Positions 29,352 through 40,509 of a stretch of DNA of 41,393 nt are shown here, in pieces. The translations under genes were made by a program, and so were the position numbers. Numbering within the stretch: position 1 is the stretch's first letter; each line of letters opens with the position of its first letter. The stretch comes from a virus. The notes below the pieces were generated by a model that was given only the letters and a program-made list of their open reading frames with translations, was not told where the DNA came from and made no database searches. The DNA lies in the IMG/VR virus record IMGVR_UViG_3300035670_000501, positions 1 through 41,393 of that record; one strand, written 5' to 3'.

Positions 29352-29407
29352 TTTTAACTCCTTTTCGAGGGGCCACCACCAAGTTATTAGATACTTGGAA
29401 ACTTTGA

Positions 29408-29479
29408 GCTTCCTGCCGGAATCGAACCGACAACCCTCGCATTACAAATGCGATGCTCTACCTGTTGAGCTAAGGAAGC
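29408..29479 (-). tRNA. tRNA-Thr(TGT)
   Basis: Full cloverleaf: acceptor GCTTCCT/AGGAAGC, anticodon loop TTTGTAA and a standard T-arm. CCA is not encoded, as with the other tRNAs here. It is the last RNA before the terminator at 29351. Confidence 0.95.
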
Positions 29480-29491
29480 ATTTTGAGCCGA

Positions 29492-29641
29492 TTACTCGGC
29501 TACAGTTGTGTCTACAGCAACACAAGTAGTATCAACTACTGTAGTGTCTACTGCTGTAGAATCTGTGGTAGTGGTTTCGGTGTTATTAGCACAAGAAGCC
29601 AAAGCTACAACAGCAACAAGAGCGAAAAACATTTTTTTCAT
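29492..29641 (-). CDS. small Thr/Val/Asp-rich lipoprotein
   Basis: A 49-residue protein from the ATG at 29641, chosen over upstream ATGs because the signal peptide begins here. MKKMFFALVAVVALASC is a textbook lipoprotein signal with the lipobox LASC and acylated Cys17. The mature part is 33 residues, almost only Thr, Val, Asp and Ala in TTVVD-like repeats with one extra Cys40. It has its own host-type promoter (29676-29707) and sits between a membrane protein gene and tRNA-Thr. Phage lipoproteins of this size can block receptors against superinfection (for example T5 Llp). That role is inferred from class and promoter only. Confidence 0.7.
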   Translation of the reverse strand: MKKMFFALVAVVALASCANNTETTTTDSTAVDTTVVDTTCVAVDTTVAE

Positions 29642-29675
29642 TTTTGTATGTTGGGTTTTAATTGTTAAACTTAGA

Positions 29676-29707
29676 ATAAATATATTAACCTTTCTTGACA
29701 TTTCCAA
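29676..29707 (-). promoter_or_regulatory. host-type promoter of lipoprotein gene
   Basis: TTGG, 19 bases, TATATTTAT on the minus strand. It lies across the 3' end of the 85-residue gene and about 35 bases before the lipoprotein ATG. Confidence 0.75.
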
Positions 29708-29942
29708 GTGCTTTGTCGATTCTTGAATCAACTTTGCGAGAAATCTCTTGAATAGATTTTTCTGTTTGAGATTTAATAGAATTTATTACCTTAAGATTAT
29801 CTTCTACTGATTTTCTATGTTCTTTAAATTCTCGTTTAATTCGAGTAAATTCAATCAACACAGCAGTCATTCCTAACAAAATGGCTCCAATAAAGAACAT
29901 TGTCACTGGATGTGGTAGTACTGTAACTGTAACTTCATTCAT
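29685..29942 (-). CDS. small membrane protein with coiled coil
   Basis: An 85-residue protein. A short N-terminal segment and one transmembrane helix (VTMFFIGAILLGMTAVLIEF) are followed by a Lys/Glu-rich helix (about 33-85) likely to form a coiled coil on the cytoplasmic side. It lies between tRNA-Ser(TGA) and the lipoprotein gene. The function is unknown; it resembles the other small membrane helices of the lysis region without clear sequence identity. Confidence 0.6.
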   Translation of the reverse strand: MNEVTVTVLPHPVTMFFIGAILLGMTAVLIEFTRIKREFKEHRKSVEDNLKVINSIKSQTEKSIQEISRKVDSRIDKALGNVKKG

Positions 29943-29964
29943 ATTAACTAATTTAAATTTTAGC

Positions 29965-30048
29965 GGAAGATGTAGGATTCGAACCTACGGTACCTTGCGG
30001 TACAACGGTTTTCAAGACCGCCGCGATCGACCACTCTGCCAATCTTCC
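29965..30048 (-). tRNA. tRNA-Ser(TGA)
   Basis: Class II cloverleaf with a long variable arm. Acceptor GGAAGAT/ATCTTCC, anticodon loop CTTGAAA. It lies directly upstream of the 85-residue membrane protein gene. Confidence 0.95.
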
Positions 30049-30078
30049 ATTCCATAATTAAGTCTATGGGAAACTTTG

Positions 30079-30149
30079 TTAACGGTGTAGGGATCGAACC
30101 TACATTTCTTGGGTCGGGGCCAAGCGTCCTGCCGTTAGACGAACCGTCA
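30079..30149 (-). tRNA. unusual tRNA, possible Arg(CCG) or degenerate Gln-like
   Basis: The acceptor (TGACGGT/ACCGTTA, one G-T pair), D-arm (GTCTAACGGCAGGAC) and T-arm (GTAGG/CCTAC) are normal and resemble the phage's own tRNA-Gln. The anticodon stem CTTGG/CCAAG closes the loop CCCCGAC, which has C rather than the near-universal T at position 33. The nominal anticodon is CCG. Whether it is charged or decodes is open. Confidence 0.6.
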
Positions 30150-30169
30150 AGATACGGCATATTGATATT

Positions 30170-30490
30170 ATAATCTGGCGATTAGAACCCGACGTTCTAT
30201 TCGTTTCCTTTACTAGCTACATCTCCCGACATGTATTACTAATAAACTGTGAGAACAAAGCTATTGAGGTAACTTTGCTTTATACTTTGGATTTAACAAC
30301 CGCAATTGTTCTAGCGGCCCCGAAATGTTTACTAAAACACTCACGGAATTAAACCAACCTATTTCTCACCAGACCTTCTATCCAATGGGAACCCTCACCT
30401 GCTTGCGAACCTCTCCGTTAATGCAGTTTCAGCAGGATACTGCAAGAAGGTTTTCCTTCGGGGCACTTTTGGGTATGTTATATTTTCAAA
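30170..30490 (-). ncRNA. candidate structured RNA, about 300 nt
   Basis: This 390-base stretch has no credible gene but is dense in hairpins. An 8-bp helix GCCCCGAA/TTCGGGGC joins 30457-30464 to 30317-30324. Another 7-bp helix, TCTGGTG/CGCCAGA, joins 30367-30373 to 30174-30180 and would cross the first (pseudoknot). Local hairpins lie at 30446-30459, 30423-30443 and 30300-30317. It starts just after a host-type promoter (30502-30532) and precedes two tRNAs. Its 3' part vaguely recalls the 3' end of tmRNA (GGGTTCTAATCGCCAG), but no tag reading frame or matching 5' end is found. No known family recognised. Confidence 0.55.
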
Positions 30491-30501
30491 GAACTATGAT
30501 A

Positions 30502-30532
30502 CGAATATAATATAAATACATTCAATATCCAA
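30502..30532 (-). promoter_or_regulatory. host-type promoter upstream of structured RNA
   Basis: TTGG, 19 bases, TATATTCG on the minus strand. The expected start near 30495 is the beginning of the structured RNA candidate. Confidence 0.75.
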
Positions 30533-30538
30533 GTTTAG

Positions 30539-30615
30539 TTGGCAAGAAGGGACTTGAACCCTCATGTAACCAGTTACCCTTTCTACAAGGTATAAGCTTG
30601 AGGGGATACTTGCCA
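30539..30615 (-). tRNA. atypical tRNA-like RNA without normal D-arm, possible Ile(TAT)
   Basis: The 7-bp acceptor TGGCAAG/CTTGCCA and T-arm (GAGGG/CCCTT) are clear. No normal D-arm can be drawn. The only good 7-base loop is CAAG-CTTATAC-CTTG, which would present TAT after a correct T33. A small hairpin GTAA-CTGG-TTAC occupies the variable region. It may be a truncated tRNA for ATA codons or a non-translational tRNA mimic. Confidence 0.5.
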
Positions 30616-30621
30616 ATATTG

Positions 30622-30694
30622 TCGGGAAGACAGGACTCGAACCTGCGGCCTGATGGTCCCAAACCACCCAATCTACCAACTGATCTACTTCCCG
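30622..30694 (-). tRNA. tRNA-Pro(TGG)
   Basis: Normal cloverleaf: acceptor CGGGAAG/CTTCCCG, anticodon loop TTTGGGA. Confidence 0.95.
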
Positions 30695-30703
30695 ATATTA
30701 TTG

Positions 30704-30777
30704 TGATCCAATCAGGATTCGAACCTGAGACCTACTGCTTAGAAGGCAGTTGCTCTATCCATCTGAGCTATTGGACC
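30704..30777 (-). tRNA. tRNA-Arg(TCT)
   Basis: Normal cloverleaf: acceptor GGTCCAA/TTGGATC with one G-T pair, anticodon loop CTTCTAA. It reads AGA/AGG codons. Confidence 0.95.
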
Positions 30778-30788
30778 ATAATATATTG

Positions 30789-30861
30789 AGCGAGATGTGG
30801 GACTCGAACCCACAACCCCCGACTTGGAAGGACGGTGCTCTACCAATTGAGCTAATCTCGC
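30789..30861 (-). tRNA. tRNA-Gly(TCC)
   Basis: Normal cloverleaf: acceptor GCGAGAT/ATCTCGC, anticodon loop CTTCCAA. First tRNA after the promoter at 30886-30917. Confidence 0.95.
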
Positions 30862-30885
30862 TTTTTATGTCAACGAACTTATGTT

Positions 30886-30917
30886 GTAAATATACAACCA
30901 AAATATTAAAAAACCAA
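30886..30917 (-). promoter_or_regulatory. host-type promoter within tRNA region
   Basis: TTGG, 19 bases, TATATTTAC on the minus strand, upstream of tRNA-Gly, -Arg and -Pro. Confidence 0.8.
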
Positions 30918-30925
30918 ATTTATTG

Positions 30926-31011
30926 CGGAAAGCATTGGAGTCGAACCAAATACCTTTTCAGGTACATCTCGCTTAGCAGGCGGACCCTCTCACCGTTGAG
31001 GATTACTTTCC
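30926..31011 (-). tRNA. tRNA-Ser(GCT)
   Basis: Class II cloverleaf with long variable arm. Acceptor GGAAAGT/GCTTTCC, anticodon loop CTGCTAA. It begins 5 bases after the RNase H-like gene ends, so it is probably cut from the same transcript. Confidence 0.95.
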
Positions 31012-31016
31012 TTATT

Positions 31017-31466
31017 TTAACGACATTGATAATCAGCTGCCTTAGTAGCAACTTGAATATCAGGTTTAACGTTAACTTTATATCCTAAACTATTTGCCCA
31101 ACCTTTAGCAGCTGAAATTAGTTTATTTGATTTAAAGGTTTCATCATCGTTATAATCCATATCAATTTGAACGTTAACATTTATTTGTTTAGTTAACCAT
31201 TCTGCTATTTCAATAGATGCTTCTGCTTCTTTCCATAAGCGAGTCCATATATCTAAAATAGCAGGTTCTTTAGATTTAGAAACAATATAGTGAACGCCAT
31301 TACGACTAAAACGATACGCTATAACGGTACTATATGTTGTATAACCGCCTTCATTTTGAGAGTCAGTACCAATGTGGATTTGCACAGTTGGATTGTCTCT
31401 TAACACCTCTAATGTATGTTTAACCACGTTTACCACTTGACCGTTTACTCGTTTGAACACTTTCAT
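31017..31466 (-). CDS. RNase H-like protein, YkuK/DUF458 family
   Basis: A 149-residue protein from the ATG at 31466 (MKVFKRVNGQVVNVVKHTLE); an ATG at 31484 would add six residues. The signature IHIGTDSQNEGGYTTYSTVI places the first catalytic Asp as in YkuK-like RNase H-fold proteins. Later acidic residues (DMDYNDDE) could complete the metal site. The family is predicted to be nucleases, but its substrate is unsettled. It is the only protein gene inside the dense tRNA array, flanked within 30 bases by tRNA-Trp and tRNA-Ser. A role in RNA processing or RNA/DNA hybrid removal is suggested by context. Confidence 0.75.
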   Translation of the reverse strand: MKVFKRVNGQVVNVVKHTLEVLRDNPTVQIHIGTDSQNEGGYTTYSTVIAYRFSRNGVHYIVSKSKEPAILDIWTRLWKEAEASIEIAEWLTKQINVNVQIDMDYNDDETFKSNKLISAAKGWANSLGYKVNVKPDIQVATKAADYQCR

Positions 31467-31492
31467 TTTAATTAAATTAAACAATTTACTAG

Positions 31493-31563
31493 CACGGATA
31501 CAAGGATTCGAACCCTGAACTGAGGTTTTGGAGACCTATATGATACCATTTCACCATATCCGT
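31493..31563 (-). tRNA. tRNA-Trp(CCA)
   Basis: Cloverleaf with acceptor ACGGATA/TATCCGT, anticodon loop CTCCAAA. Confidence 0.92.
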
Positions 31564-31571
31564 ATTTTATG

Positions 31572-31643
31572 AGGTTAGTATAGGATTCGAACCTATATAC
31601 CGAAGTTTTGCAGACTTGGACCTTACCTATCGGACAACTAACC
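31572..31643 (-). tRNA. tRNA-Cys(GCA)
   Basis: Cloverleaf with acceptor GGTTAGT/ACTAACC, anticodon loop CTGCAAA. Confidence 0.94.
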
Positions 31644-31648
31644 ATTTG

Positions 31649-31722
31649 GGTGATTAATGGGAATCGAACCCATGGCACAAGGAACCACAATCCTTTGCTC
31701 TACCTACTGAGCTATAACCACC
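31649..31722 (-). tRNA. tRNA-His(GTG)
   Basis: Cloverleaf with acceptor GTGGTTA/TAATCAC, an extra 5' G (-1 position) facing C73 as expected for histidine, anticodon loop ATTGTGG. Confidence 0.94.
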
Positions 31723-31728
31723 ATATAG

Positions 31729-31802
31729 TAGGAATAATAGGGCTCGAACCTATAACCTTCCGCGTATCAGGCGGATGCTCTAACCAATTGAGCTATATTC
31801 CT
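31729..31802 (-). tRNA. tRNA-Ile(GAT)
   Basis: Cloverleaf with acceptor AGGAATA/TATTCCT, anticodon loop CTGATAC. Confidence 0.95.
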
Positions 31803-31807
31803 AATTG

Positions 31808-31879
31808 CGTCCTCACTAGGATTCGAACCTAGGACCCAACGGTTAACAGCCGTTTGCTCTACCACTGAGCTATGAAGAC
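31808..31879 (-). tRNA. tRNA-Asn(GTT)
   Basis: Cloverleaf with acceptor GTCTTCA/TGAGGAC, anticodon loop CTGTTAA, discriminator G as usual for Asn. Confidence 0.95.
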
Positions 31880-31885
31880 ATTTGG

Positions 31886-31958
31886 TGGTTTCTGCTGGAT
31901 TCGAACCAGCGACGCTCGGCTCTTCAGGCCGACGCTCTACCAACTGAGCTAAGAAACC
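31886..31958 (-). tRNA. tRNA-Phe(GAA)
   Basis: Cloverleaf with acceptor GGTTTCT/AGAAACC, anticodon loop CTGAAGA. Confidence 0.95.
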
Positions 31959-31963
31959 AATTG

Positions 31964-32037
31964 TACATCGGGAAGGATTCGAACCCTCAACCCCTGCATC
32001 CGTAGTGCAGTGCTCTATCCAATTGAGCTACCAATGC
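31964..32037 (-). tRNA. tRNA-Arg(ACG)
   Basis: Cloverleaf with acceptor GCATTGG/CCGATGT, anticodon loop CTACGGA. A34 would need the host TadA deaminase to read CGN codons. Confidence 0.94.
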
Positions 32038-32042
32038 ATTTT

Positions 32043-32126
32043 GTGCCTGCAGAAGGACTCGAACCTCCGAACCCGTAAGGGAGCTGATTTACAGTCAGCT
32101 GCAATTGCCGCTATGCGATACAGGCA
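32043..32126 (-). tRNA. tRNA-Tyr(GTA)
   Basis: Class II cloverleaf with long variable arm. Acceptor TGCCTGT/GCAGGCA, anticodon loop CTGTAAA. Confidence 0.93.
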
Positions 32127-32198
32127 AATTCCGATTTTGATGGGCTACTTCTGATAATATGTTTCAATTACCCAGCACTTGAGATCGAGAACTCCTTG
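32127..32198 (-). ncRNA. inter-tRNA insert E, weakly structured
   Basis: 72 bases between tRNA-Tyr and tRNA-Val, much longer than the usual 5-10-base spacers. A TGGG/CCCA pairing and a GAAGTAGCCC stretch are visible, but no strong closing helix. It may be a small RNA or a processed spacer. Confidence 0.3.
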
Positions 32199-32271
32199 TA
32201 CACCCTCTAGGATTCGAACCTAGGACATATTGCATGTAAAACAATCGCTCTACCAACTGAGCTAAAGGTGC
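32199..32271 (-). tRNA. tRNA-Val(TAC)
   Basis: Cloverleaf with acceptor GCACCTT/AGGGTGT, anticodon loop TTTACAT. Confidence 0.93.
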
Positions 32272-32373
32272 ATATTCCCGTCGTTGGTACTGGCCGTTTC
32301 TCGAGTCGACACTTTCCCCGTTCTTGTTTTATTTGAGTGTACTTCCCTACTGGGACTTGAAGTCAACACTATG
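32272..32373 (-). ncRNA. inter-tRNA insert D
   Basis: 102 bases between tRNA-Val and tRNA-Lys. A TCCC-AGTA-GGGA hairpin carries the AGTAGG core found in other inserts, and two similar GTGTYGACT segments occur 50 bases apart. No perfect closing helix was found. Confidence 0.35.
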
Positions 32374-32447
32374 TGATCCCGATGGGGCTCGAACCCATGA
32401 CTCCCTCATTAAAAGTGAGGTGCTCTAGCCAACTGAGCTACGAGATC
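32374..32447 (-). tRNA. tRNA-Lys(TTT)
   Basis: Cloverleaf with acceptor GATCTCG/CGGGATC, anticodon loop CTTTTAA. Confidence 0.95.
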
Positions 32448-32453
32448 GTTTTG

Positions 32454-32534
32454 TACCGAAAGCGAGACTCGAACTCGCAAGCACTAGGCACTGGTTTCTA
32501 AGACCAGCATGTCTACCAATTCCATCATTTCGGC
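32454..32534 (-). tRNA. tRNA-Leu(TAG)
   Basis: Class II cloverleaf. Acceptor GCCGAAA/TTTCGGT, anticodon loop CTTAGAA. Confidence 0.95.
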
Positions 32535-32537
32535 AAG

Positions 32538-32665
32538 TAAAGAGAAACTACGGGTCTTTCGGGGTTTCTGGTTGAGTGCAATGAGTGACGCCTACCTACT
32601 ATAAACCCTTTTTCGGCAATTAATACACTCTACTTCTCAACTACAGCTTTCACTGTTTCTCTTTA
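32538..32665 (-). ncRNA. inter-tRNA structured RNA C, closed by 11-bp helix
   Basis: A 128-base insert between tRNA-Leu and tRNA-Asp. Its ends form a perfect 11-bp inverted repeat (TAAAGAGAAAC with GTTTCTCTTTA). The interior contains GTAGGTAGG (32591-32599) shared with insert B, and a CCCCGAAAG segment. The closing helix would isolate it from the flanking tRNAs and could guide processing. No coding potential. Confidence 0.55.
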
Positions 32666-32666
32666 G

Positions 32667-32740
32667 CGGCTCATACGGGACTCGAACCCGTGATCTCCCA
32701 CGTGACAGGCGGGCATCCACTCCAACTGGACCAATGAGCC
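32667..32740 (-). tRNA. tRNA-Asp(GTC)
   Basis: Cloverleaf with acceptor GGCTCAT/ATGAGCC, anticodon loop CTGTCAC, discriminator G. Confidence 0.95.
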
Positions 32741-32744
32741 AAAT

Positions 32745-32859
32745 AAAACATAATACTACTTTAATAACGTTTACCCAATTTTACATCCGAACGCTTTACC
32801 TTGTTAGACCGTAATTTGGGGAACGACTTCTAACATCCTACCTACCCATATTATGTTTT
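32745..32859 (-). ncRNA. inter-tRNA structured RNA B, closed by 11-bp helix
   Basis: A 115-base insert between tRNA-Asp and tRNA-Ala, bounded by a perfect 11-bp inverted repeat (AAAACATAATA with TATTATGTTTT). It shares the 9-mer GTAGGTAGG (32837-32845) with insert C. No open frame of interest. Confidence 0.55.
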
Positions 32860-32860
32860 G

Positions 32861-32933
32861 TGGAGCTGAAGGGATTCGAACCCTCATCCTTTACATTGCA
32901 AATGTAACGCTCAGCCAGTTGAGCTACAACCCC
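32861..32933 (-). tRNA. tRNA-Ala(TGC)
   Basis: Cloverleaf with acceptor GGGGTTG/CAGCTCC, including the G3-T70 pair that identifies alanine tRNA. Anticodon loop TTTGCAA. Confidence 0.95.
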
Positions 32934-32938
32934 CTCTA

Positions 32939-33015
32939 GACAGACTTTGCACACGTTCAGGGCCTACTGTGCTAATTCATCCCTGCGCTTCTACGTTTCC
33001 CGTCGGATATCTGCC
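32939..33015 (-). ncRNA. inter-tRNA structured RNA F
   Basis: A 77-base insert between tRNA-Ala and tRNA-Gln. Closing helix GGCAGA/TCTGTC (one wobble), an internal hairpin GCACA/TGTGC, and the AGTAGG core. Weaker than inserts B and C but similar in placement. Confidence 0.4.
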
Positions 33016-33019
33016 TTTG

Positions 33020-33090
33020 TTTTCCCCCAGAGATTCGAACTCCGATTCAGTGGCTCAAAACCACTTGTCCTGCCATTAGACGAGAGGAAA
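33020..33090 (-). tRNA. tRNA-Gln(TTG)
   Basis: Cloverleaf with acceptor TTTCCTC/GGGGAAA, anticodon loop TTTTGAG. Confidence 0.93.
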
Positions 33091-33095
33091 ATATA

Positions 33096-33175
33096 GTTGC
33101 AATTGATGGACTCGAACCACCCACGGGGAGCTACCCAAACTGACTCATGAGATCAGCGCTGCACCTGCATTGCAA
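33096..33175 (-). tRNA. atypical CAT tRNA with reduced D-arm
   Basis: Acceptor TTGCAAT/ATTGCAA and T-arm GGTGG/CCATC (with one unpaired base between T-stem and acceptor). A sound anticodon arm CTGAT-CTCATGA-GTCAG gives CAT. Only 12 bases replace positions 8-26, too few for a normal D-arm. The variable region is about 18 bases with a GGG-TAGCT-CCC hairpin. It could be a Met, initiator or Ile2 type, or a tRNA mimic. Confidence 0.55.
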
Positions 33176-33180
33176 TATAG

Positions 33181-33255
33181 TTGCGGGAGTGGGAATCGAA
33201 CCCACCTAGTCCAAGCTTATGAGACTTGTCAGTGCACCAGCTCTAGTTTCCCGCA
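33181..33255 (-). tRNA. tRNA-Met(CAT)
   Basis: Normal cloverleaf: acceptor TGCGGGA/TCCCGCA, anticodon arm CAAGT-CTCATAA-GCTTG. It could alternatively be Ile2 if lysidine-modified. Confidence 0.9.
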
Positions 33256-33263
33256 GTTTATTG

Positions 33264-33337
33264 TATTCCGGACGGGGTTCGAACCCGCAATCTCCGCCTT
33301 GAAAGGGCGACGAGTTAACCCGTTACTCTACCGGAAC
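33264..33337 (-). tRNA. tRNA-Glu(TTC)
   Basis: Cloverleaf with acceptor GTTCCGG/CCGGAAT, anticodon loop CTTTCAA. First tRNA after the promoter at 33386-33417. Confidence 0.94.
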
Positions 33338-33385
33338 ATGGTTTTCTAATATGTCAAAGAACTTCGTTCTTGCTTTTTCAACTTG

Positions 33386-33417
33386 GTAAATATACGAAAA
33401 TATATCCGGATATCCAA
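33386..33417 (-). promoter_or_regulatory. host-type promoter of main tRNA array
   Basis: TTGG, 19 bases, TATATTTAC on the minus strand, about 50 bases before tRNA-Glu. No other host-type promoter was seen until 30886, so it may drive all tRNAs from Glu to Ser(GCT) plus the RNase H-like gene. Confidence 0.8.
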
Positions 33418-33473
33418 GTTTTTTGTGAGAAGTTTTTAATTTCTCTTTTTATTTTACTATTTTAAAGAACAAA

Positions 33474-33504
33474 CAAAAAAACCCGACTTTTTTAGGGTCG
33501 GGTT
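33474..33504 (-). terminator. Rho-independent terminator
   Basis: On the minus strand an 8-bp stem AACCCGAC/GTCGGGTT with a 9-base loop is followed by TTTTTGTTTG. It ends the RNA unit from 34637 or 33685 and lies before the tRNA-array promoter. Confidence 0.9.
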
Positions 33505-33537
33505 TAACTTTGTTTTATTTGTATGTCTTTGTTATCT

Positions 33538-33659
33538 ACATACTCAACTTCGGTTAAACCCTGGATGCCCCGGATTAAACTTATAATCACTAATCCATGA
33601 TTGGCCCACTGCGATCATTGTCGCTCTGCGCTCTTGGTTTTGTGATATGTTGAGTAAGT
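33538..33659 (-). ncRNA. structured RNA A with own late-type motif
   Basis: A 122-base domain closed by an 11-bp helix with one mismatch (ACTTACTCAAC with GTTGAGTATGT). Internal hairpins include GCGA/TCGC and GGATTA/TAATCC. It is preceded by an exact ATATTTATAAC motif (33685-33695) and followed by a strong terminator. It could be an independent small RNA of about 200 nt, or the 3' domain of the large RNA upstream. Confidence 0.5.
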
Positions 33660-33684
33660 GTTTCACCTGTAGTAAAATTTATAT

Positions 33685-33695
33685 GTTATAAATAT
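33685..33695 (-). promoter_or_regulatory. candidate late promoter motif in RNA region
   Basis: An exact ATATTTATAAC on the minus strand, not followed by a protein gene but by structured RNA A and its terminator. This suggests late expression of a non-coding RNA. Confidence 0.45.
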
Positions 33696-33705
33696 GTTAA
33701 AATTT

Positions 33706-34637
33706 TTCTTTGTCGCAATAGAGGAAACGAACCTCTAAAATGTCCAACTTGCGTGTAAATTTAAAACGCTGAGATTATACGTTTATGCGTTAGGTCTTTT
33801 GTCGGATTATTTATTCCCTTCTTATCCACAAGCTTTTGACTTGTATCCTAACAATGCCGGTTATTTAAGTGAACCACTCTTTAAGTCACCTGTATTGGAC
33901 TACTCTCGCTATACTCCATCTGTTCAAACTTGCGGTCTGATAAGCCCCTGCCGAGGTTACAAATTTTTCAAACGAATCACTATCGGCTTGCGACCTCTAG
34001 TGGCAATGAACAACTCATTACTATGTAGGCATCTTTCGTCCGTGACTGGCATGCACTTTTGCTTTGATAGTTGTGAATTTGCATTCCAAAATACGCAAAG
34101 TGTTTTGACGTGGATGAGTGAAAGTAGTGGCCTGCCTTTTAGCTTTCCCAACTTTTGATCGAGAAAATACTAAACTACTCTCTGAGATATCCCTACCTCC
34201 ATATTTTAAGATTACTTCATGTTGCAAACCTTGGTAGATTCAAAACAAGGTAAATAACAGCACCACCTGTACATTTACATGCCTTTCGGCTTTAAGTACC
34301 CTCTAATATTGAATAACGCAATTGTAAACCTGGATGGGCCTATATCTTGCAAATATTCTACGAGTTATTCTTATTGTCCTTCCGGACTCAACCTAACGAC
34401 CCACATCGCTAAGTCATTCAATCATTTCATTACGGCGTTGCCCTCACTACTTCAGACCAAATGATATCCCGCTTGTCTACTCGAGCTCCTTTCGAAGCCG
34501 CAAACTACTTTGTCATGTAATTCACTTTATCCCCCTTTCGAGGTTTATTTAACGACCATAGACTGCCAATATCTTTTATCAACTTTCGTTGAATGGATAT
34601 TATAATAATTTAAAGAACGTTTTGTTTTCTAATTTGC
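33706..34637 (-). ncRNA. large structured RNA candidate, about 900 nt
   Basis: The 1.3 kb between tRNA-Glu and tRNA-Leu(TAA) has no credible gene; its short frames conflict and occur on both strands. The minus strand has repeated GNRA-capped hairpins: CAAC-GAAA-GTTG (34580-34591, inside an AATATC/GATATT stem), CCTC-GAAA-GGGG (34531-34545), CTTC-GAAA-GGAG (34484-34500), GTCC-GGAA-GGAC (34376-34390) and GCC-GAAA-GGC (34281-34290). The 3' end has a tRNA T-arm/acceptor mimic (33714-33753: CGCAA/TTGCG stacked on TAGAGG/CCTCTA with loop TTCGTTT). Size, host type and tRNA neighbours recall the ornate GOLLD and ROOL RNAs of phages. Membership is not shown. Confidence 0.65.
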
Positions 34638-34643
34638 TTATAT

Positions 34644-34675
34644 ATAAATATACGAACATCTTTTCAAACAACCAA
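34644..34675 (-). promoter_or_regulatory. host-type promoter of large RNA
   Basis: TTGG, 19 bases, TATATTTAT on the minus strand. The predicted start near 34637 is about 35 bases before the first hairpin of the large RNA. Confidence 0.8.
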
Positions 34676-34717
34676 GCTATATTAAAAAATTTTTAAAAAG
34701 CTTTTATTTTTTTTTTG

Positions 34718-34803
34718 TACATCCGGCCGGAATCGAACCGGCACGACCATCACTGGCCAAGGGATTTTAAGTCCCTCGTGTCTACCTATTTCACCACGGA
34801 TGC
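34718..34803 (-). tRNA. tRNA-Leu(TAA)
   Basis: Class II cloverleaf. Acceptor GCATCCG/CGGATGT, anticodon loop CTTAAAA. It begins 6 bases after the 82-residue gene ends, so it is cotranscribed with it and separated from the main tRNA array by the large RNA. Confidence 0.95.
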
Positions 34804-34809
34804 ATATAT

Positions 34810-35058
34810 CTAAATATATGAAGATTTTTCTTTATTTCCAACCTCAACATCCCAATCTTTAGCTCCTACTTGAAGACATTGGAGAAATGAAGCATCTGGG
34901 AATTGTTCTTTGTGTTTAAAAGCCGACCAAACAACTTCTAGTTGCAAACCATATCGATCAGCACGTGATAAAATTTCATCACATTCCATATTGATGATTG
35001 CTTCATCCATGGCTTTAAGCTCCAATTGAAATTCGTCTTGTGAAATAAAATCTTCCAT
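34810..35058 (-). CDS. small acidic hypothetical protein
   Basis: An 82-residue acidic, mostly helical protein (MDEAIINMECDEILSRADRY). The middle region LQLEVVWSAFKHKEQFPD resembles small phage proteins encoded next to early genes. No catalytic motif, membrane segment or signal peptide. It has its own host-type promoter (35073-35104) and the start context AAAGTTATG. It ends 6 bases before tRNA-Leu. The function is unknown. Confidence 0.65.
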   Translation of the reverse strand: MEDFISQDEFQLELKAMDEAIINMECDEILSRADRYGLQLEVVWSAFKHKEQFPDASFLQCLQVGAKDWDVEVGNKEKSSYI

Positions 35059-36965: not shown

Positions 36966-37727
36966 TTATGCAAGTGTTAACTCTCTACCTGCAAGATCAT
37001 ACAATTGTTGATTCAACCAAATATCAGTTTGTTTATCTTTAACATCATGTGTTAAGTTTTCTTGAATACGGTTAAATACAGTCCATACGTCATTACCTTC
37101 GTCTTCAACGCGATTTACGCGCAATAATGCGTCGGGATTGAAGTTTTCATCGGTTTCGTTGAAACGTAATCTCGCTGCGTTATATGCAAGCTCTCTCATT
37201 TGTTCAAGAGTCATATCTTTTTGCTTCCAAGTATTAAGTTGAGCAATAACTTCTTGAGCTTTATCATTCATACTATTAACAAAACGATCTAAATCTCTAT
37301 AGTTAATTTCTGTATGCTTAATTTTTTCAGTTTCAGCGTGTTTATCAAACCTAATTGCTCCATTAGAACATACCATTCGATATGCTCCTAAACCTATTGA
37401 AAGAGGTCGATCACCTGAACAGCTATTAGAAACAGTAATTGAAGAATATGCTTCATCTTTACCTTGCTTATTTTTAACAGCAAAATCAGGATGAGTCATT
37501 TGAACATAGTTATGAGTAATCTTACGACTATTTTTATTACGTTGTTCATCAACTCCATTAATTAACCATCCTTCATTTTGTAGTTTTTGAACTACTTCAA
37601 TAGTAGGAATATAAAACTCTTTTTGTTTGATACGTTGAACTTTACTAATGTAATTAGGATCAAGAGTATTAGCAAATGCTTTTGCTTTGTTCAAATCGTT
37701 GTTTACTGGAATAAATTTGTATTTCAT
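36966..37727 (-). CDS. DUF932-like protein
   Basis: A 253-residue protein. The core SITVSNSCSGDRPLSIGLG followed by AYRMVCSNGAIRF matches the DUF932 phage/plasmid family signature (ILxNSHDG...AGxFRxVCxNG). C-terminal helices end in a segment with RVEDEGNDVWTVFNRIQENL, which the second copy at 39715-40509 also carries. Members are widespread in phages and plasmids and are thought to be DNA-metabolism or anti-host accessory proteins; no activity is established. It follows the 39-residue gene by one base. Confidence 0.75.
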   Translation of the reverse strand: MKYKFIPVNNDLNKAKAFANTLDPNYISKVQRIKQKEFYIPTIEVVQKLQNEGWLINGVDEQRNKNSRKITHNYVQMTHPDFAVKNKQGKDEAYSSITVSNSCSGDRPLSIGLGAYRMVCSNGAIRFDKHAETEKIKHTEINYRDLDRFVNSMNDKAQEVIAQLNTWKQKDMTLEQMRELAYNAARLRFNETDENFNPDALLRVNRVEDEGNDVWTVFNRIQENLTHDVKDKQTDIWLNQQLYDLAGRELTLA

Positions 37728-38758: not shown

Positions 38759-39226
38759 TTAAATGTAACGTTGACCTAGAGTTTCAACTGCTTTTTTAGC
38801 TTCATCAAGTGAAATTTGAAAAAATTCTCTATGGTTATTTACTCGATATGACTCAAGATATTTATGAACTTCACCTTCAAGTTGTTCACCATTATAGCAA
38901 TGAAAAGCCCATTCTACTTTATAAGGTAAAACAACACCCGTAGCATTAGAAATTTGCCTAGCTCTTTCTTCGGGTTGGTTTTTAGTATAACCAATTTTAA
39001 GCATAGCAGGAAGAGTAGGATTTGAAAGAACATAAACCCAAGAATCAAAATCTCCTTCTCTATTAGCATACATATTTTTCTTACGAGCAGTATAATAAGT
39101 CACTTTATCCCATTCATCTTCTATAGGAGTAAAAGTATAAAAAGCAGCATTCCCAAACCCCCCAGAATAATCCTCAACACAAGGAATATATTGTTTAGCT
39201 TCTTCTTCAGTTATTCTTTTAATCAT
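38759..39226 (-). CDS. T5orf172/GIY-YIG-related protein
   Basis: A 155-residue protein. Residues 62-145 match the T5orf172 (MUG113-like) subfamily of GIY-YIG domains: WVYVLSNPTLPAMLKIGYTK, then ERARQISNATGVVLPY, a Glu in GEVHKYLESYRV and a terminal REFFQISLDEAKKAV. Family members are predicted DNA-binding or nuclease proteins of phages. The N-terminal 60 residues (with GGFGNAAFYTFTPIEDEWD) are not recognised. No clear promoter lies in the 85 bases upstream. Confidence 0.75.
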   Translation of the reverse strand: MIKRITEEEAKQYIPCVEDYSGGFGNAAFYTFTPIEDEWDKVTYYTARKKNMYANREGDFDSWVYVLSNPTLPAMLKIGYTKNQPEERARQISNATGVVLPYKVEWAFHCYNGEQLEGEVHKYLESYRVNNHREFFQISLDEAKKAVETLGQRYI

Positions 39227-39311: not shown

Positions 39312-39734
39312 CTACAAATTAAACCCATCAACAATACTAGTAGTGGATTTACTATCTCGGGAAACGTAAATAATTTTTTTGATAAATTGGGAACCAATTA
39401 TAGGTTTGCCACGATAATCGTCACCTATAACCATAAAATCCGGCATTATAGTGCTTATATGCGATTCAAGCTCATCATTCGATGCGAATGGTAAAACATG
39501 ATCTATATACTTTATAGACGAAAGCATTAAAATACGATCTTGGAGAGAATTAATTGGACGTGTAGGACCTTTATAGGAGGAAATACGATCATCAGTATCA
39601 ATACCAATCCAGACATGACCTTGAGAACCAGCTAACATACGTGCGATACGGAAAAGTTTGATATGCCCCGTATGGAGCACATCAAACGAACCGTTAAGCC
39701 AAACTTGATTGCTCTTAAGCGGTAACATATTCAA
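39312..39734 (-). CDS. cytidylyltransferase-like enzyme (HIGH superfamily)
   Basis: A 140-residue single-domain nucleotidyltransferase. VWLNGSFDVLHTGH (about 11-24) contains the HxGH signature; IGDDYRG (103-109) and STTSI (130-134) are the later nucleotide-binding motifs. The size and motifs match glycerol-3-phosphate cytidylyltransferase/RfaE-C-type enzymes, which transfer CMP or AMP to a phosphorylated sugar, polyol or cofactor precursor. It overlaps the second DUF932-like gene by 20 bases. With the nucleotidyltransferase-zincin fusion, this is the second such enzyme in the window. The substrate is unknown. Confidence 0.8.
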   Translation of the reverse strand: MNMLPLKSNQVWLNGSFDVLHTGHIKLFRIARMLAGSQGHVWIGIDTDDRISSYKGPTRPINSLQDRILMLSSIKYIDHVLPFASNDELESHISTIMPDFMVIGDDYRGKPIIGSQFIKKIIYVSRDSKSTTSIVDGFNL

Positions 39735-40509
39735 GAGCTAAATCATACAATCTCTCGTTGATAACCAAGTCTTGTTTAAAGTTCTTGATTTTACGGGCCT
39801 TACGAGACTTAACACCGTACTTGTAGTTGAACATACCGTGGATCACTTTCTCCTGAATCACGTTATATACACTCCACAAGTCATTTCCACGATCCTCGGA
39901 ACGTGTTGGGGTAAGGAGATCTTGGAAATCGATCTGGATATTATCTAAATCGCCGAGGCGAACTTCTAAGGCTTTCTTTGCAAAATCGAGGGCCTGTTCT
40001 TGGCTCAATTCTACTTGGCGGAACTTGTTCAATGACTCAACAGTCAAAGGCAATTTTTCAACCATTGCTTTGATTGTATCTTGTAACTCTTCAAATGAGT
40101 AACCGTAGTGACGGATTTTCATGTTTTCAAACTCACGGGAAGAAACAACCAAACCATTTTCACAAACCATACGGAACAAACCGGCTGTGAAGGTAAATGC
40201 ATTTTTACCGTCATGTGAATTTGTCAATAGGATTTGTGGGAAAACGTTGTCACCATCCTCTGCGGTGATCTGGATATCATTGTTACGGAACACAACTAGG
40301 TGTTTTTGGTAACCATCGCCTTTACGGGCTTTAACTTGTTTAGCATCAACTACTCCCCAACCCAACAACTGCATGTCGTCGATGATTTTTTCGGTTGAAA
40401 TGTGAGCATACTTTTCACTTGTTCCCGGAGCACCTTGTGCTGTGAAAATTGAATTTGCTAATTGGCGGATTTCGCTTTTTGTTCTAAACTCTTGATTTAA
40501 ATTTAACAT
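39715..40509 (-). CDS. DUF932-like protein, second copy
   Basis: A 264-residue DUF932-type protein. KHLVVFRN, ILLTNSHDGKNAFTFTAG and LFRMVCENGLVVS form a near-consensus family core. The terminal section shares the RGNDLWSVYNVIQEKV pattern with the copy at 36966-37727. The two are clearly homologous but divergent outside the core. It is first in its unit, with an AAGGTTATG start and a host-type promoter at 40559-40590, so it is probably abundant early. The function of the family is not established. Confidence 0.8.
   Translation of the reverse strand: MLNLNQEFRTKSEIRQLANSIFTAQGAPGTSEKYAHISTEKIIDDMQLLGWGVVDAKQVKARKGDGYQKHLVVFRNNDIQITAEDGDNVFPQILLTNSHDGKNAFTFTAGLFRMVCENGLVVSSREFENMKIRHYGYSFEELQDTIKAMVEKLPLTVESLNKFRQVELSQEQALDFAKKALEVRLGDLDNIQIDFQDLLTPTRSEDRGNDLWSVYNVIQEKVIHGMFNYKYGVKSRKARKIKNFKQDLVINERLYDLALEYVTA

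Follow-up and report, generated by a model that had tools for sequence, protein, structure and literature searches.

A full-length GOLLD RNA in a phage tRNA array has a leader motif shared with Bacteroidota 16S rRNA leaders

Introduction

Few known RNA-only assemblies are as large as GOLLD. In the cryo-EM structure of env-38 GOLLD, an RNA of 833 nt is divided into a 5' domain (nucleotides 1-420), which makes up the cap, and a 3' domain (421-833), which makes up the ring (PMC12286853). The env-38 cage comprises 14 chains, with the linker disordered inside the cage and with two self-kissing loops, L21a and L21b (PMC12286853). Transcription signals of another class of long untranslated RNA, the rRNAs, have been described separately: the boxA of gamma-proteobacteria has the consensus GYTCTTTAANA, a survey from which its authors left non-coding RNAs out (PMC5725501).

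Here, we analyze a GOLLD locus from a virus record of 41,393 bases. The whole record was analyzed and is referred to as the window; positions are those of the window unless a locus number precedes them. An initial annotation of this DNA had proposed a non-coding unit on the minus strand, and its location and extent hold: the unit begins with a promoter (34645-34675) and reaches about 33706.

Results

The phage tRNA array contains a full-length GOLLD RNA. Twenty-five tRNA genes, which cover all 20 amino acids, lie on the minus strand at 29406-34803, and the GOLLD locus sits inside this array between tRNA-Leu and tRNA-Glu. A cmscan search with all Rfam families (4227) matched the GOLLD model RF02032 end to end at 33766-34182 on the minus strand (model positions 1-416; 277.9 bits against a gathering score of 150 bits; E 1.9e-78). 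The full-model match identifies the RNA as GOLLD, an assignment that we regard as virtually certain. It is therefore neither a very divergent member nor a new class, as the initial annotation had suggested it might be, although the same annotation was right to name GOLLD as its leading guess.

The RNA extends well beyond the Rfam model. We show that it is about 850 nt long, running from 34606 to 33755 on the minus strand, and that a 5' part of about 420 nt precedes the 417-nt 3' domain. Similarity between loci likewise exceeds the model: distant relatives (65-70% identity) match as far as about 34581, and the closest ones as far as 34700. The RNA and its neighbors are arranged as follows.

34717 to 34803, minus strand: tRNA-Leu(UAA), upstream neighbor of GOLLD
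34183 to 34606, minus strand: GOLLD 5' domain, the cap domain of the known cage, absent from the Rfam model (approximate boundaries; 24 loci aligned)
33766 to 34182, minus strand: GOLLD 3' domain, RF02032 (covariance-model match)
34039 to 34104, minus strand: variable A+U-rich linker within the 3' domain, unpaired in the Rfam alignment and variable in length among our aligned homologues; contains no tRNA in the window
33263 to 33337, minus strand: tRNA-Glu(UUC), which opens the downstream tRNA unit

GOLLD relatives were recovered from viral and genomic collections. A pattern scan of IMG/VR gave 48 contigs, nearly all of which share the RNA according to BLAST, and cmscan scored GOLLD at 269-322 bits in eight diverse relatives. 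When annotated phages were searched at the DNA level, two unannotated huge phages were the only matches. Four matches to the GOLLD pattern were found across the genome collection. One, on a Mycobacterium contig (L054:254-683, minus strand), is a real GOLLD, with a tRNA inside its linker (545-613) and tRNAs adjoining both sides; the other three (L052, L053, and L055) were rejected as chance matches to the pattern.

Several other genes were observed in the window and in related loci. The tRNA array also holds a gene for an RNase H-like protein (PF04308) at 31017-31484 on the minus strand. Two DUF932 proteins are encoded at 36966-37727 and 39715-40509 (minus strand), and the gene at 38759-39226 specifies a T5orf172 (GIY-YIG type) protein. 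Genes for tmRNA lie a few kb from GOLLD at L009:2090-2488, L024:4549-4954, L028:332-706, and L031:3574-3907, and those of L009, L024, and L028 match Rfam RF00023 too.

Both domains show covariation far beyond chance. In an alignment of 24 homologues (1010 columns, hardly covering the leader), 145 of the 198 pairs given by RNAalifold change on both sides yet stay paired, with 96.1% of cells paired and a covariation score of 0.65. Sliding the partners by 1-3 columns left 40-64 double-change pairs, 37-42% of cells paired, and a score of 0.09-0.13, and so the structured RNA of the initial annotation withstands a check by covariation. Double changes were found for 78 of the 104 pairs of the 5' domain (96.6% of cells paired) and for 67 of the 93 pairs of the 3' domain. 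Column-shuffled RNAalifold gave a z of about -60 for each half, a value that is swayed by the alignment and that we take to mean simply far beyond chance. Two helices that cannot be nested also emerged from a covariation scan.

34116 to 34121, minus strand: pseudoknot 1, 5' strand, pairing with 34033-34038 (covariation)
34033 to 34038, minus strand: pseudoknot 1, 3' strand, pairing with 34116-34121
34013 to 34017, minus strand: pseudoknot 2, first strand, pairing with 33839-33843 (covariation)
33839 to 33843, minus strand: pseudoknot 2, 3' strand, pairing with 34013-34017

All six pairs of pseudoknot 1 covary (APC-MI 6-12 sd), with standard pairs in 95-100% of cases, and this helix may be the reported L20-J13/15 contact. 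In pseudoknot 2, which connects the junction that follows the GAAAG segment with the segment that follows P22, the pairs 34017-33839, 34014-33842, and 34013-33843 covary by up to 14 sd. Its two strands read AUGCC-GGCAU in the window and GUGAC-GUCAC elsewhere, and it appears to resemble the reported L22-J17/22 pseudoknot.

GNRA hairpins lie on one strand only. At least five had been noted at the outset; with stems of at least 4 pairs, we find five on the transcribed strand of 33700-34640 versus none on the opposite strand. The number expected from dinucleotide shuffles was 0.21, with 3 at most. Two further hairpins occupy the putative site of the kissing loops.

33931 to 33941, minus strand: hairpin with loop CGGCA, putative L21a (env-38 numbering in PMC12286853)
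33914 to 33925, minus strand: hairpin with loop CGCAA, putative L21b (placed by position)

Palindromic GC or UCGA loops are found at this site across the loci, the putative correspondence to L21a and L21b being set by position. The loops contain GC in most loci, while the putative L21a of L002, L003, L012, and L039 has UCGA, which is self-complementary as well and fits the reported switch from GC to CG in L21a. By analogy with env-38, we infer that 14 copies of the RNA could form a hollow cage. Among the closest relatives, the two loop sequences (33914-33941) are swapped between the window, L014, L016, and L017 on one side and L004 and L050 on the other; L004 and L050 are >90% identical overall to the window.

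The element directly 3' of GOLLD is probably a reduced tRNA, judging from its form and from the neighbors found at the same place in other loci. This minihelix is not part of GOLLD.

33709 to 33754, minus strand: tRNA-derived minihelix, with a T-arm-like hairpin (6 bp, 7-nt loop) and a possible 5-bp acceptor CGCAA/UUGCG

The initial annotation had described it as an imitation of a T-arm stacked on an acceptor stem within the large RNA. The element is real and highly conserved, but it lies outside GOLLD and departs from a true T-arm: its loop, UUCGUUU or AUCGUUU, lacks A58 and does not fit the UUCRA T-loop consensus. Taken by itself, its fold does not reach significance (z -0.8), and another pairing competes with the 5-bp acceptor. 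The 46-nt element is present in the window, L004, L014, L016, L017, and L050, and 45 of its 46 positions are invariant in these six phages versus 45 of the 100 positions just downstream. It shows no covariation because there is hardly any variation.

Other GOLLD loci have related elements in the same slot. A full tRNA is found 11-21 nt past the last GOLLD hairpin (TAATCTCA...) in the close relatives L026, L021, and L048, while the T-arm alone remains in L035, L041, and L028. The huge-phage relatives L002, L012, and L003 have a tRNA-like element after GOLLD with an anticodon loop of 6 nt (UUUUCA or UUUUUA), and these elements are probably non-decoding.

L002:12830-12903, L003 after 12838, and L012 after position 833: tRNA-like elements directly 3' of GOLLD

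A shorter tRNA-like form is seen in L039, and degenerate tRNA-Gly-like elements in L032 and L051. The elements of the huge-phage relatives, L039, L032, and L051 were partly read by eye. Of 68 distinct 3' neighborhoods, 20 show a canonical tRNA no more than 40 nt away, and a tRNA-like element or remnant is present in about ten others. More than half have no tRNA-like element, and many end in U-runs and intrinsic terminators.

The minihelix could instead be a decaying tRNA without function, a reading that we take seriously but consider the less probable one. It sits in a tRNA slot, its loop lacks A58, and degenerate tRNAs occur at the same place in other loci, all of which would suit decay. However, 45 of the element's 46 positions do not differ among the six phages, compared with 55 variable positions in the 100 downstream, and the 6-nt anticodon loops of the three huge-phage relatives suggest selection beyond decoding. 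We thus favor a tRNA reduced under selection, which may serve as a 3' processing signal.

The unit probably ends at an intrinsic terminator behind the minihelix.

33470 to 33505, minus strand: intrinsic terminator, putative end of the unit (fold z -5.0)

A scan listed the terminator stem (33479-33505) on the plus strand; on the minus strand, it is followed by TTTTTTT. Thr_leader (26.7 bits versus a cut-off of 55) and similar weak Rfam matches overlap the terminator and were rejected as below threshold. Between minihelix and terminator, the closest relatives do not share the stretch 33520-33690 (minus strand), in which a small ORF ends ...SWISDYKFNPGHPGFNRS.

A sequence conserved across GOLLD leaders also occurs, letter for letter, as a motif in 16S rRNA leaders of Bacteroidota. 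The promoter and the boxA-like elements of the window are listed below.

34645 to 34675, minus strand: GOLLD promoter, TTGG, 19-nt spacer, and TATATTTA, kept in relatives
34610 to 34618, minus strand: boxA-like element GTTCTTTAA, about 27 nt past the promoter in the direction of transcription
33354 to 33362, minus strand: boxA-like element immediately ahead of tRNA-Glu in the following unit, with an exact GTTCTTTGACATATT at 33348-33362
30486 to 30494 and 33462 to 33470, minus strand: further boxA-like elements in the tRNA/GOLLD stretch

A host-type promoter had been claimed for the unit, and we recover it: TATATTTA at 34645-34652, with TTGG 19 nt upstream, is kept in the relatives L004, L014, L016, L050, L026, and L021, while farther relatives such as L023 and L025 have TATATTTG. 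We take the promoter to be of the Bacteroidota type, TTTG-N19-TANNTTTG, and TATATTTG is the known -7 form in Bacteroidota. The window contains TATATTTA 15 times on the minus strand and twice on the plus strand. Transcription of GOLLD would start near 34640, and GUUCUUUAA lies directly behind the promoter.

We show that, of 60 distinct GOLLD leaders, 53 have an exact G[UC]UCUUU[GA]A no more than 110 nt upstream of the core that GOLLD loci conserve, and 7 have no exact match. In the first set of leaders, 25 of 29 had the motif versus 0.12 expected from shuffles. The same motif is present within 220 nt in 17 of 26 Bacteroidota 16S rRNA leaders, for which 16S starts were taken from genomes in the phylum of a Bacteroidales MAG (L055) and leaders with enough upstream DNA were counted. 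A reversed-pattern control gave 0 of 61 genomes. Many GOLLD leaders have a small hairpin ahead of the motif, which the window does not. In rRNA leaders, boxB lies ahead of boxA. The GTTCTTTAACA of the relative L026 fits GYTCTTTAANA, the boxA consensus of gamma-proteobacteria (PMC5725501).

We infer that the leader motif is boxA, the antitermination signal of rRNA, on the grounds of these shared letters. All four minus-strand GTTCTTTRA matches of the window fall in the tRNA/GOLLD stretch. As the motif also stands before array tRNAs, boxA would mark the stable-RNA units of the phage and not GOLLD alone. It is not universal in GOLLD: L054 lies between tRNAs and has no such leader. Taken jointly, the GOLLD identity and the boxA reading of the leader are fairly probable.

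A different role for G[UC]UCUUU[GA]A, as a structural strand of GOLLD or as the site of a phage-specific regulator and not of Nus factors, is unlikely. That nearly all GOLLD leaders keep the motif would agree with either role. However, the spacing between motif and core ranges from 20 to 101 nt with the letters unchanged, which is a poor fit to one strand of a fixed helix. Both roles also have to contend with identical letters in 16S leaders of the host phylum and before array tRNAs.

The phage is distantly related to Flavobacterium phage immuto. Immuto phages are the closest isolates, with 46-51% amino acid identity over the full length of baseplate and primase proteins, and a search of immuto for GOLLD found none. 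This proximity, together with the form of the promoter and the form of the boxA, makes a host in Bacteroidota likely.

Two remaining readings are extremely improbable. The size and setting of the region suit ROOL too, as the initial annotation had argued, but ROOL (RF03087) is unmatched in the 4227-family scan, even with E values of up to 1 allowed across 33300-34900, while GOLLD is matched at full length, which leaves next to no room for ROOL or for a large RNA of some new, unrelated class. Separately, to compare ROOL leaders, ROOL was sought in 120 Firmicutes genomes, and none was found there. Nor does the region code for protein on any reasonable view, since the 119-aa ORF on its plus strand is open in 0 of 42 homologues and the RNA structure covaries strongly. 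The region has four ORFs of at least 60 aa, and homologues conserve none of them: two of the frames are closed in every homologue, and the other two are open in 3 of 41 and in 12 of 38. This bears out the earlier judgment that the region holds no credible gene.

Discussion

The leader and the 3' neighbors suggest a route by which GOLLD could be made. Host RNA polymerase would start at the Bacteroidota-type promoter, and the boxA in the nascent leader would recruit the host NusB/NusE antitermination complex. Antitermination would then allow the long untranslated RNA to be made without Rho termination and, as with rRNA, might also assist its folding. The 3' end may be released by way of the adjacent tRNA or tRNA-like element, here a shrunken tRNA, as a substrate of RNase P or tRNase Z, and the intrinsic terminator behind the minihelix would end the unit. 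More generally, GOLLD of Bacteroidota phages might be made like rRNA, with a host-type boxA for transcription and folding and with trimming by tRNA enzymes at tRNAs or at reduced, non-decoding tRNA-likes; we offer this tentatively, as a proposal with nearly as much for it as against it. The likeliest use of such a cage would be holding or shielding translation-apparatus RNAs in infected cells, which is a more doubtful suggestion.

GOLLD membership by itself is ordinary, and it is the leader and the series of 3' neighbors that look new, as far as the literature shows. No description of a boxA-like leader or of a tRNA-derived 3' series for GOLLD was found in the literature searched, whose reach did not include the original 2009 report, and a search pairing "boxA" with "GOLLD" returned nothing on phage RNA. 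A conserved boxA, if true, ties a phage RNA cage to the rRNA transcription machinery of the host and makes its biogenesis testable by point mutation. The graded 3' neighbors (tRNA, anticodon-defective tRNA, T-arm remnant, and minihelix) offer a test of 3'-end formation.

The locus shares features with several known systems. Like ROOL (RF03087), a cage-forming RNA, it is a large phage RNA near tRNAs, but neither the sequence nor the model of ROOL matches here. Mycobacterial tRNA arrays likewise contain GOLLD with tRNAs as its immediate neighbors on either side (PMC6582537; L054), but the mycobacterial RNA has a tRNA inside its linker and shows no boxA leader beside it. With GOLLD as known from RF02032 and from the env-38 cage (PMC12286853), our RNA has in common the whole 3' domain of the covariance model, a comparable total length, a distinct 5' domain ahead of the conserved 3' domain, the variable linker, a place in a phage tRNA array, and, at the putative kissing-loop site, self-complementary hairpin loops with GC or UCGA. 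It differs from described GOLLD in its boxA-like leader and tRNA-like 3' neighbor. An rRNA operon leader (PMC5725501, PMC10250234) resembles the GOLLD leader in its promoter, its frequent small hairpin, its GUUCUUU[GA]A, and the long untranslated structured RNA that follows, but the GOLLD leader is phage-borne and leads into GOLLD and tRNAs rather than rRNA.
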